64,000 bases of DNA, taken from contig MWSW01000012.1 of the NCBI GenBank assembly GCA_002050165.1, positions 372,001-436,000 on the forward strand, read 5' to 3'. A model generated the notes under the pieces. The model had not been told where the DNA came from. It searched no databases and saw only the letters and a list, made by a program, of their open reading frames with translations. The position numbers were made by a program, and so were the translations under genes. The DNA comes from Candidatus Tepidiaquacellales bacterium OLB4/UTCHB1 (GTDB lineage Bacteria > Bacteroidota > Ignavibacteria > Tepidaquicellales > Tepidaquicellaceae). This document shows positions 37,850 to 42,034 of this stretch, one piece after another (the stretch's first letter is position 1; every line of letters begins with the position of its first letter).

Positions 37850-37945
37850 CGAAATTAACTTATAAAATATATTTGCTTTATCCTACTCTATTTTATTTTC
37901 CATAGAATAAACTTTGTACATTACATATTTTTGGTAAAATTCACT

Positions 37946-39289
37946 ATGGCAGACAAAACCGTTAACCCAACAAAAAAAAGGCTTGAAGAGATTGAAAAGG
38001 AACTGGCAGACCTCCAATCGTTGAAAAAAGAATTGGTAGCGCACTGGAACCTCGAGAAGGATTTAATTAAAACTATCAGGGCTTCAAAAGAAGAAATAGA
38101 AGACCTGAAGGCTGAAGCTGAGCAACTTGAACGTCATGGAGATTTGACAAAAGTAGCAGAGATTAGATACGGAAAAATCCCCGGTCTTGAAAAGCAAATC
38201 AGCGACAAGACGGAGGAGCTTTCAAAAGTCCAAAGCGATAAGAAAATGCTGAAAGAAGAGGTTGATTCAGAGGATATCGCGGAGATAGTTTCACGCTGGA
38301 CAGGAATTCCCGTTTCGAAAATGCTTGAAGGCGAACGTCAGAAACTATTGAATATGGAAAAGAACCTTGAGCAGAGAGTAGTTGGACAGGATGATGCTGT
38401 AACAGCAGTTTCGAATGCAATAAGGAGATCCCGTGCGGGCTTGCAGGACGAAAGCAGACCAATCGGATCATTCATTTTCCTCGGGACAACCGGGGTTGGT
38501 AAAACTGAACTGGCAAGAGCGCTTGCTGAGTTTCTTTTCGACGATGAAAAAGCTATTGTCAGAATTGACATGAGCGAGTATATGGAGAAATTTGCTGTAT
38601 CGAGGTTAATCGGCGCGCCACCCGGATATGTTGGTTATGAAGAGGGAGGGCAATTAACTGAAGCCGTCAGAAGAAAACCTTACTGCGTTGTGTTGCTCGA
38701 TGAAATAGAAAAAGCACATCCCGATGTATTCAATATCCTTCTGCAAGTACTTGACGAAGGTAGGTTAACCGATTCGAAAGGCAAAACCGTAAACTTCAAG
38801 AACACGATTATTATTATGACATCAAATATCGGTTCTCATCTGATTCAGGAAAAAATGGACATTTTAACTGACGTTAACCGAGATGAGGTAATGGGCGAAC
38901 TGAAGGTTAAACTTTTCGATCTGCTGAAATCATCTATTCGCCCGGAATTCCTTAACCGAATTGACGAAATAATTTTATTTAAACCGCTCACTCAAAAAGA
39001 AATCAGGTTGATTGTTGACCTTCAGCTGACAAACCTCTTCCGACGATTGGAGCATAACCAAATTACAATGACTGTTGACAATGAAGTAAAGGATTGGCTG
39101 GGGAAATTGGGATTTGATGTGGCTTTCGGTGCCAGACCTCTGAAGAGGATCGTTCAGAAACATCTGATAAACAAACTATCGGAGAAAATACTAGCTGCGG
39201 AAATTCTACCCGGTGATAAGATAAATGCCGTTCTCAATGTTAATGGGGAAATTGATTTCGTTAAAGTCGGCACCAAATCCCCGTCATAA
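37946..39289 (+). CDS. ClpB-like AAA+ protein with second ATPase domain only
   Basis: 447 residues from ATG 37946 (TTG 37931 would add five). The sequence aligns with the C-terminal half of ClpB. Residues 9-105 are the distal part of the coiled-coil middle domain ([21 protein letters not shown]). Residues 106-447 are the NBD2 module with Walker A GTTGVGKT (180-187; usual GPTGVGKT), pore loop GYVGYEEGG (227-235), Walker [10 protein letters not shown], arginine-finger region RPEFLNRID and sensor 2 GARP (395-398). The N-domain and NBD1 are missing. The bases up to rarA show no remnant of them, so this is a clean shortened gene. All catalytic motifs look intact, so a single-ring unfoldase is possible. 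The SerK-like gene begins two bases after the stop. Confidence 0.88.
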
Positions 39290-39291
39290 TA

Positions 39292-40128
39292 ATGATTAAT
39301 TACACCAAAAGTTTTTTCAATCTCAGAATACTAAAACTGAGCGAAATACTCCTTCACGAAGCTACCGAAAGCAACCGACTCAGAAATATTTATTCCAGAA
39401 TTGCAAGGTCAAGATTTCTGATGAATCCCGTTATCGTTGGTAAATATGGTGAAGAATATGTACTCATTGACGGTGCAAACAGAGCCGGCTCATTAAAAGA
39501 AATCGGTTGCAAGTTGATCTTAGCACAGATTATAAATTATAAGAGCCCCGATGTAAAATTGCTAACATGGGATCACCTGATTTACAATTTTGATTTGCAC
39601 ATGTTGGATAGGTTTGCAATCAGACATAACCTCAAATATGAATTAATCGAGGGTGTGATATCAAAACCAATTGTTGAAAATAAAGATGACAATATATTTG
39701 CAACCGAAATCGAATCGGGAAAGACATTATCGATTGAATTACCGTACGAGTTCTTTGATAAAATCAAAGCAATTACCAATCTGACCAAATTATATTTTCA
39801 CAAATTCAATTTCGACAGGTCTGAGTCCGAAATAAGCATTTCAGAGTTGAGAAAATATTCCCGAAGGAACGGCGTACTCATTAAGTTTCCGGCATTCAGT
39901 AAACAACAAATTATGAGGATTGCTCGCAGCAGTCATCATCTGCCGGCGGGTATTTCGCGGCACATTGTAGTCAACAGGGTTCTGCATGTGAAGTATGATA
40001 TTGAAAAATTAAAAAGCGCATCGGGGATTGAGACGAAACAAAAGGAGCTTGAAGATTTATTGTTGAAGAAAATTGACTCGAACAAAGTCAGACAGTACAC
40101 CGAATCAGTAATAGTTTTCGACGAGTAG
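39292..40128 (+). CDS. ParB-fold protein resembling free-serine kinases (SerK/SbnI)
   Basis: 278 residues. The N-terminal ParB/sulfiredoxin-like domain (10-90) has LRILKLSEILLHEATESNRL, NPVIV and YVLIDGANRAGSLKEIG. It follows archaeal SerK and staphylococcal SbnI, which phosphorylate free L-serine, in order: a glutamate after the first strand (E23, matching the catalytic SerK/SbnI glutamate), DGxxR (D60-R64, here DGANR), and a late S/T-R-H motif (SRH at 222-224) before a final valine-rich strand and an acidic helix. No DNA-binding HTH follows, so it is not a chromosome-partitioning ParB. O-phosphoserine formation is an inference. It lies two bases after the clpB-like gene and overlaps the next start. 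Confidence 0.65.
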   Translation: MINYTKSFFNLRILKLSEILLHEATESNRLRNIYSRIARSRFLMNPVIVGKYGEEYVLIDGANRAGSLKEIGCKLILAQIINYKSPDVKLLTWDHLIYNFDLHMLDRFAIRHNLKYELIEGVISKPIVENKDDNIFATEIESGKTLSIELPYEFFDKIKAITNLTKLYFHKFNFDRSESEISISELRKYSRRNGVLIKFPAFSKQQIMRIARSSHHLPAGISRHIVVNRVLHVKYDIEKLKSASGIETKQKELEDLLLKKIDSNKVRQYTESVIVFDE

Positions 40129-41354
40129 TGAAACTTGAAAATTTCATAGCGAGACGTTACCTCTTCTCTAAAAGGAAGATTAACTTTATAACAATTATTA
40201 CGGGTATTTCCGTGATTGGTGTTACGATTGGCGTAGCAGCAATGATAATTGTTCTATCGGTCTTCAATGGGTTCAATCAAAAAGTTACATCAATTTTGGT
40301 TAATTTTGATCCACACCTAAGAATTGAATCCGCTAATGGAGAGTTGTTAACCGACTATCATTCAATTCAACAGAAGCTCGATAAAGCAGGTTACAGCAGG
40401 TCATCGCCGTTTACTTTAACCAAAGGGATGGTCAGTAGCGAACAACTCAACAAGGTTCTGTACGTAAAAGGTGTGGATGCGCAAACTGTTGATAAAGTTT
40501 CGGGTATTAAGGATGTAGTTGTACTTGGTGAATTCGATTTAAAAAACACAGGTGAGGTCGGTGGGATTGTCATCGGGAGACCGATTGCAGGCGAGTTACG
40601 GGCATTAACCGGTGATACTATTACCTTGCTAAGTCCAGTCGGTCTTGAACATTCGCTGACACAATTCGTAAAACCTGTTACCAAAAGATTCGTTGTGCGG
40701 GGAATTTTCGATTCCGATAACAAGGAATATGATTCGAAATACGCTTATATATCGCTTGAAAACGCTGCCGAATTGTTCGAACTTGGCGATGGTGTGCAAG
40801 GAGTCGAAATTCGACTTAACGATATAAACGAGTCAGACGATGCAAAGGAAAAGCTTAAAGAAATTTTCGGTAACAACTTCAAGATCATGACATGGTACGA
40901 TTTGCACAAAGATTTCTATTCAATCCTTAAAATTGAAAGATTGGTCGCATTTATAATTTTAAGTATAATAATTCTTGTTGCATCCTTTAATATTCTCGCG
41001 TCGTTAACTATGACGGTAATCGAGAAGAAGCGGGATATCGGTGTTCTCAAATCAATGGGTGCAACTGACAAAACCATTACGAAAATTTTTCTAACCGAAG
41101 GCGTAGCTGTCGGATTAATCGGAATGATTGCCGGCAGTATCATAGGGCTTGCAGTTACTCTTGCACAAAAATATTTTGAATTTTACAGAATTGATTCATC
41201 GGTTTATAAATTCGACGCGTTACCGGTTGAGTTGAGGTACACGGATTTTATCTTTGTACCTCTTGCAGCTTTTGTACTATGTTTCCTTGCTTCACTTTAC
41301 CCTTCAAGGAAAGCAGCAAAGCAAAATCCGGTTGAGTCTATAAGATGGGAATAA
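40128..41354 (+). CDS. Lipoprotein-releasing ABC transporter permease (LolC/LolE family)
   Basis: 408 residues starting at GTG 40128, which shares one base with the preceding stop (TAGTG). The N-terminus ENFIARRYLFSKRKINFITIITGISVIGVTIGVAAMIIVLSVFNG contains the first membrane helix. A periplasmic MacB-type domain spans about 50-260. Three C-terminal helices follow, with the FtsX-type loop EKKRDIGVLKSMGATDKTI. With the ATPase encoded next it should extract outer-membrane-bound lipoproteins from the inner membrane. A single permease gene (as in LolF-type systems) suggests a homodimer. Confidence 0.92.
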   Translation: MKLENFIARRYLFSKRKINFITIITGISVIGVTIGVAAMIIVLSVFNGFNQKVTSILVNFDPHLRIESANGELLTDYHSIQQKLDKAGYSRSSPFTLTKGMVSSEQLNKVLYVKGVDAQTVDKVSGIKDVVVLGEFDLKNTGEVGGIVIGRPIAGELRALTGDTITLLSPVGLEHSLTQFVKPVTKRFVVRGIFDSDNKEYDSKYAYISLENAAELFELGDGVQGVEIRLNDINESDDAKEKLKEIFGNNFKIMTWYDLHKDFYSILKIERLVAFIILSIIILVASFNILASLTMTVIEKKRDIGVLKSMGATDKTITKIFLTEGVAVGLIGMIAGSIIGLAVTLAQKYFEFYRIDSSVYKFDALPVELRYTDFIFVPLAAFVLCFLASLYPSRKAAKQNPVESIRWE

Positions 41355-42034
41355 TGTCAGAAAAAGAAATCTTAATACAGGCTACCGGAATAAAAAAATC
41401 TTACAACACAAGTAAGACAAATAAACTTGAGGTATTGAGGGGTATTGACCTGAAAGTATATAAAGGTGAAATTGTTGCAATTGTCGGGAAATCCGGAACA
41501 GGTAAAAGTACTCTACTGCATATATTAGGAACATTGGACAAGCCGGACGAAGGCAAATTACTTTTCAGGGATAAGGATATATTCGAAGGAACTGAACGGG
41601 AAATTGCATCGTTCAGAAATACAAAAATCGGTTTCATATTTCAGTTTCACCATCTGCTGCCGGAATTTACCTCGCTCGAAAATGTTATGATTGCTATGAT
41701 GATAAACGGAAAATCCGACAGGGATAAAGCGCTTGAATTAATGAAAGAAGTGGGCGTTGAATCACGTGCAAATCATAAACCATCACAAATTTCAGGTGGG
41801 GAGGCGCAACGTGTTGCTATAGCCAGAGCTTTGGTTAATTCACCCGAACTCGTTCTTGCTGATGAACCAACGGGTAATCTCGATACAGCGAACGCAAATG
41901 CGGTAATCGAATTGATTTTCCAACTACGGAATAAATTCAACATGGCGTTCGTAATTGTTACGCACAATGAAGAGTTCGCATCTAAGTGCGATCGCGTGAT
42001 TAAAATGTCAGACGGATACATTACATCATATTAG
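41354..42034 (+). CDS. lolD: Lipoprotein-releasing ABC transporter ATPase
   Basis: ABC ATPase of the LolD/MacB group. ATG 41354 overlaps the permease stop as TAATG and is preferred; ATG 41345 would add three residues. It has Walker A GKSGTGKST, the Q-loop in FQFHHLLPEFTSLENVM, signature ISGGEAQR, Walker B LVLADEPTGNLD and the H-loop VTHNEE. EFTSLENVM is characteristic of LolD. It energises the LolC/E-type permease. Confidence 0.93.
   Translation: MSEKEILIQATGIKKSYNTSKTNKLEVLRGIDLKVYKGEIVAIVGKSGTGKSTLLHILGTLDKPDEGKLLFRDKDIFEGTEREIASFRNTKIGFIFQFHHLLPEFTSLENVMIAMMINGKSDRDKALELMKEVGVESRANHKPSQISGGEAQRVAIARALVNSPELVLADEPTGNLDTANANAVIELIFQLRNKFNMAFVIVTHNEEFASKCDRVIKMSDGYITSY

Follow-up and report, generated by a model that had tools for sequence, protein, structure and literature searches.

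The locus and its genes

The window analysed here is a stretch of 64,000 nucleotides from an Ignavibacteria genome, and coordinates without a contig or locus name refer to it. An open reading frame on its plus strand, at 39292-40128, starts with ATG, ends with TAG and encodes a protein of 278 aa, and the antisense strand of this frame is rich in stops. The features of the locus are as follows.

37931..39289, plus strand: short ClpB-like protein, 452 aa, with AAA_2 and D2-small domains only; upstream, with a 2-nt gap to the putative kinase gene
39292..40128, plus strand: putative free L-serine kinase of the SbnI/SerK family, 278 aa (from homology, fold and alignments)
39355..39360, plus strand: H22-E23, with the putative catalytic Glu (SbnI E20, SerK E30); invariant in relatives that cover both residues (from alignments)
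39469..39483, plus strand: D60-G-A-N-R64, putative nucleotide/Mg loop (SbnI D58-GVHR, SerK D69-GHHR), with N63 in place of the His of both
39955..39963, plus strand: S222-R223-H224, late motif (SerK T223-R-H, SbnI T201-R-F; from alignments)
40090..40125, plus strand: conserved C-terminal tail, R267-x-Y-x-E271...FDE278 (from alignments)
40128..41354, plus strand: FtsX/MacB-type (LolC/E-like) ABC permease; downstream, its start codon overlapping the stop codon of the putative kinase gene by one base
41345..42034, plus strand: LolD-like ABC ATPase, after the permease

Given the 2-nt gap on one side and the one-base overlap on the other, the putative kinase gene is probably part of an operon, and the ClpB-like gene, which adjoins it in many loci of the same family, is probably its operon partner. 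The permease gene lies 3' of it in most readable loci of the same family and order. The putative kinase gene itself is found in 27 of the 28 other genomes of the same family and in most of the next family. Scans of its surroundings for promoters and terminators stayed at chance level. The original prediction called the genome Bacteroidetes-like, which is nearly right, in that close relatives are named either Ignavibacteria (or Ignavibacteriae) or Bacteroidetes.

The ClpB-like protein (37931-39289) comprises the second AAA module and a D2-small domain alone, lacking NBD1, and reading frames with equal size and start adjoin the putative kinase gene in many genomes of the family. The genome also encodes a Clp ATPase of 847 aa elsewhere, at G000:C12.

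Sequence and fold

Profile comparison and structure prediction, both named in the original prediction as checks on a SerK/SbnI-like candidate, place the protein with these two enzymes rather than with ordinary ParB N-domains. The NCBIfam model for SbnI (NF033589) matches residues 10-275 at 1.7e-20, with 73.5 bits against a curated cut-off of 350 bits, and that for SerK (NF053625) matches at 7.7e-11, with 41.6 bits against a curated cut-off of 380 bits. When PDB sequences are searched with the window protein, SbnI ranks first and SerK second. With a 75-row profile, the SbnI structures are found at 2e-33 and SerK at 6e-14, nearly the whole chain being matched, and ParB appears at only 0.02-0.04. 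Both NCBIfam models match all 75 of the 75 members tested. On these comparisons, the protein is neither an SbnI nor an archaeal SerK equivalog, yet it belongs with them.

The AlphaFold2 model of the window protein has a pLDDT of 89.0 and a pTM of 0.85. Foldseek matches this model to SbnI at 1e-17 and to SerK at 4e-14, the SbnI and SerK structures together ranging from 1e-17 to 3e-13 over 237-266 columns, with TMq (by query length) of 0.64-0.71. ParB, Noc, PadC and sulfiredoxin (Srx) match the N-terminal subdomain alone, over ~80 columns with TMq ~0.25. The predicted fold is that of SbnI and SerK, and not that of ParB.

An ordinary ParB was considered and rejected, since Pfam matches to ParB_N, HTH_ParB and the dimerisation domain are lacking and both fold and profile favour SbnI and SerK. 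The Pfam scan of the protein found no domain and hence no HTH model, in agreement with the earlier statement that it has no DNA-binding HTH. The real ParB of this genome carries ParB_N, HTH and dimerisation domains and adjoins parA; this canonical parA-parB pair sits on contig C1, apart from the putative kinase gene, which had correctly been described as not beside parA. A staphyloferrin B (sbn) context is also absent, the neighbours being the ClpB-like gene and the Lol-type ABC genes.

Residues of the putative active site

E23, D60-G-A-N-R64 and S222-R-H224, the motifs on which the original prediction was built, are found where it placed them and align with SbnI and SerK; the active site was compared through sequence alignment together with fold alignment. 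In the combined alignment, E23 corresponds to SbnI E20 and SerK E30, D60 to D58 and D69, R64 to R62 and R73, and W93 to W89 and W102, respectively, whereas S222-R223-H224 corresponds to T201-R202-F203 of SbnI and T223-R224-H225 of SerK. In the family alignment, which comprises the window protein and 80 relatives, H22, E23, P46, D60, G61, A62 and R64 are conserved in every row that covers them. H224 and R229 are present in 81 of 81 rows, position 223 is R in 78 rows and K in 3, and the rows displayed have S or T at position 222. Judged from these alignments, the three motifs are not chance matches. The kinase activity of SbnI reportedly requires E20 and D58 (Verstraete 2018, as cited in PMC9641203), and E30A and E30Q mutants of SerK with phosphoserine and AMP are among the PDB entries.

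The DGANR core does differ from the DGHHR and DGVHR of the known enzymes, as had been pointed out, and such a difference is the rule in the bacterial family: position 63 is N in 66, T in 13 and H in 1 of the 80 covering rows, the window protein included. Because the replacement of the SerK and SbnI His by N63 is family-wide, it is no argument against activity. Part of the C-terminal tail, with RxYxE, is common to SbnI alone, the tail is not in the SerK match, and all 80 relatives stop exactly at its end.

A bacterial family

A scan of GTDB genomes that started from an alignment recovered at least 111 relatives, unlike a single-sequence scan of GTDB genome contigs, which found none. The relatives come from Ignavibacteria, Kapaibacterium, Chloroflexota, Armatimonadota, ANGP1, Latescibacterota, Eisenbacteria, Patescibacteria and proteobacterial bins. 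When SerK is separated off in a tree, SbnI groups among the bacterial members at the end of a long branch, the deep order not being settled. The Ignavibacteria group of the window forms a single well-supported clade, whose branch is likewise long (1.6 changes per site). The profile libraries used hold no model that names the broad bacterial group, and no description of it was found in the literature searched.

Gene neighbourhoods of the relatives

Half of the distant loci (23 of 46) adjoin an enzyme that uses activated serine. A CysK/CysM/CBS-type PLP gene lies on the same strand within 5 kb in 13 of the 46, and genes for a MoaD-like sulfur carrier, a JAMM peptidase and a cystathionine synthase/lyase often accompany it. 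TrpB2 (TIGR01415/PRK12391) lies within 5 kb in a further 10, five of which also have SerB. The chance of 23 of 46 is ~1e-15 on the generous assumption of 20 such genes per 3-Mb genome; with ancestry allowed for, six arrangements in some fifteen lineages give ~3e-4, the lineage counts being our own estimate. TrpB2 enzymes are cited as O-phosphoserine-dependent tryptophan synthases (Busch 2014, cited in PMC11917138), and two of the best PDB matches of a betaproteobacterial TrpB2 neighbour are chains that bear the name tryptophan synthase beta chain 2. PDB searches with the neighbouring CysM-type enzymes return Mycobacterium CysM among many matches, not as the first, and do not separate O-phosphoserine from O-acetylserine. 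The common denominator of CysM/CBS, TrpB2 and SerB can be phosphoserine, and the gene neighbourhoods of the relatives independently point to O-phosphoserine. No locus in the window's own clade has a neighbour that uses O-phosphoserine.

At three loci (L084 8079-9824, L100 3693-5399 and L105 7955-9598), a MoaD/SAMP-like sulfur carrier is fused to a cystathionine beta-synthase-type enzyme. The fusion has the putative kinase gene and a gene of CysM type as direct neighbours and a JAMM peptidase close by, and these loci look like a CysO/CysM/Mec-type cysteine pathway. In Patescibacteria (L074 6717-11656), the relative is flanked by a cysteine synthase, a putative L-cysteine desulfidase (our reading, unmatched in NCBIfam) and what is likely a cysteinyl-tRNA synthetase; this locus suggests cysteine metabolism in a small genome.

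Relation to serine acetyltransferase

True serine acetyltransferase (CysE) occurs in four of 59 genomes of relatives, none of the 42 with a homolog of the putative kinase and four of the 17 without. Sampled across the phylum, 144 of 247 genomes have CysE: none of the nine with the putative kinase versus 144 of the 238 without (p = 3e-4 before correction for ancestry). The distant genomes divide by neighbourhood: CysE is found in none of the 12 with a cysteine-type neighbourhood but in 7 of the 8 with a TrpB2 neighbourhood (Fisher p = 1e-4), as expected if the kinase serves to make cysteine in the former and tryptophan in the latter. Given that the genomes are metagenome bins, single absences of CysE are weak, and the association is partly due to shared ancestry. 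The CysE matches obtained in the window's family were rejected as hexapeptide-repeat matches, at most ~50 bits, whereas true or near-true CysE scores 158-252 bits.

Serine and cysteine metabolism in the window's genome

CysE was not found in the window's genome, which has two PLP fold-II (PF00291) genes only. One encodes a CBS-type enzyme of 452 aa (TIGR01137, 479 bits against a cut-off of 510) and is directly followed by a cystathionine gamma-lyase/synthase-type (CGL) gene, ~38 kb to the left of the window on the same contig. The other encodes a 348-aa protein of a different kind (L146 7444-8487, G000:C17) with only weak similarity to the family. Matches to TrpB and to threonine synthase are both lacking in this genome, which is therefore probably auxotrophic for several amino acids.

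A SerB-SerA fusion is encoded in a single 653-aa frame (G000:C16:211167-212861, minus strand), and SerA-matching frames of ~630-653 aa occur in many relatives. Together with a SerC-like gene in the same genome, the fusion means that phosphoserine can also arise from 3-phosphoglycerate.

Proposed function and alternatives

From profiles, fold and neighbourhoods, all of which support the original assignment as a SerK/SbnI-like candidate, serine kinase activity is predicted, and we consider it likely that the protein is a free-serine kinase that gives O-phosphoserine (OPS), here chiefly for cysteine. The protein would combine a nucleotide-binding N-domain of ParB/Srx type with the C-terminal domain of SerK and SbnI. 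D60 and the DGANR loop of the ParB-like subdomain would hold the phosphates of a Mg-nucleotide, serine would sit in the cleft to the C-domain, and E23, by analogy with SbnI and SerK, may act as the base that deprotonates the serine hydroxyl. The terminal nucleotide phosphate would then pass to the hydroxyl of free L-serine to yield O-phospho-L-serine; S222-R223-H224 is placed where SerK has T-R-H.

In this CysE-less Ignavibacteria lineage, OPS would mainly serve as the activated serine for cysteine by way of the CBS-type PLP enzyme and CGL. The kinase may also bring imported or recycled serine into the phosphoserine pool, as was proposed for SerK in Thermococcus (PMC5120207), and OPS could return serine to 3-phosphoglycerate with SerC and SerA reversed. 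In the relatives, OPS would go to cysteine synthases of the CysM/CBS type or to TrpB2 tryptophan synthases.

Several points stand against the kinase reading. Its weakest point is that the divergent clade of the window, on its long branch, lacks a phosphoserine enzyme next to the gene, the neighbours being the ClpB-like gene and the Lol-type transporter. A62 and N63 replace the two His of the SerK DGHHR. Given that OPS is already an intermediate of SerA, SerC and SerB in this genome, the kinase is not strictly needed for OPS, and the CBS-type enzyme may use serine instead.

Three alternatives are possible, yet they explain less than a serine kinase does. The first, which we regard as improbable, is a kinase of the same fold that acts on another small substrate, such as homoserine, threonine or an Ignavibacteria-specific metabolite. 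The long branch of the Ignavibacteria clade and its lack of OPS-enzyme neighbours would suit such a kinase, as would the CGS-type enzymes, with relatives that use activated homoserine, near six distant members; however, SerK rejects threonine and homoserine (PMC5120207), the co-located PLP enzymes (CysM/CBS and TrpB2) act on serine or its derivatives and are not threonine synthases, and the residues equivalent to those of SerK are invariant. Slightly less probable still is a DNA-binding regulator that is not an enzyme, of the sort proposed for EdeB and for a second role of SbnI, the neighbourhoods then reflecting regulation of amino-acid genes. SbnI is annotated in NCBIfam as a bifunctional regulator/OPS synthase, and EdeB, a 256-aa SbnI-like protein of the ParB family, shifted the ede promoter in EMSA (PMC9641203). 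The window protein, however, has no Pfam HTH, whereas the canonical ParB of the genome has one; conservation across phyla extends to the catalytic residues and to the entire SerK/SbnI C-domain, and regulation would leave unexplained both the CysM/CBS, TrpB2 and SerB neighbours and the swap with CysE. A non-catalytic nucleotide binder of the ParB-CTPase fold is very unlikely: a 2025 survey describes varied nucleotide binding in the fold and an archaeal SerK-like protein that binds CTP (PMC12704722), and H71/H72 of SerK are replaced here, but none of the relatives examined departs from the Glu and Asp required by SbnI, and the C-domain specific to SerK and SbnI, which ParB switches lack, is kept to the last residue.

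Beyond the window, we give about an even chance to the wider proposal that a broad bacterial family of free-serine kinases replaces CysE and supplies OPS for cysteine or tryptophan, depending on the lineage. On this proposal, the product would serve cysteine (CysM/CBS) in Ignavibacteria, Armatimonadota, Patescibacteria, the candidate phylum ANGP1 (Terrabacteria group) and part of the Chloroflexota, and tryptophan (TrpB2) in other Chloroflexota and in betaproteobacteria.

The paper on SerK reported no clear-cut homologs in bacteria (PMC5120207). If the proposal holds, the CBS-type enzyme of the window's lineage would be O-phosphoserine-dependent, and the bacterial family would include SbnI as a specialised offshoot. 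A widespread family would explain serine activation in many CysE-less bacteria and would offer a possible source of phosphoserine for TrpB2, and "ParB-like" annotations in these genomes may mask a metabolic enzyme. To our knowledge, free-serine kinases have been characterised solely in a few archaea and in the siderophore synthesis of staphylococci.

Comparison with known systems

The ParB/Noc N-domain (CTPase fold) and sulfiredoxin share with the window protein the nucleotide-binding N-terminal subdomain of ~80 residues. The window protein differs from them in its other C-domain, in having no HTH or dimerisation domain, and in a sequence match of only E 0.02-0.7. EdeB, from the edeine cluster of Brevibacillus brevis, is likewise SbnI-like, and the peptide of its cluster contains 2,3-diaminopropionate (PMC9641203); in contrast to the window protein, it has been studied as a transcription activator, in a paper that describes no kinase activity for it (PMC9641203), and stands in a secondary-metabolite rather than a housekeeping context.

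SbnI of Staphylococcus (NF033589; PDB 5uje, 5ujd and 6nr6) is the OPS synthase of staphyloferrin B biosynthesis. The window gene lies outside any siderophore cluster and its product is 22-25% identical to SbnI, with DGANR for DGVHR and SRH for TRF, but the two share homology over the whole length, the fold and the RxYxE tail, and E20 and D58 are kept as E23 and D60. SerK of Thermococcus and Pyrococcus (NF053625; PDB 5x0b, 5x0k and 1vk1) is an ADP-dependent free serine kinase for cysteine synthesis. Identity to SerK is ~17%, A62-N63 stand for its H71-H72, and the window protein is bacterial and has the extra SbnI-like tail. Both have the two-domain fold, the equivalents of E30, D69, R73, W102 and T-R-H are present in the window protein, and the role proposed for it, the provision of OPS for cysteine, would match that of SerK.
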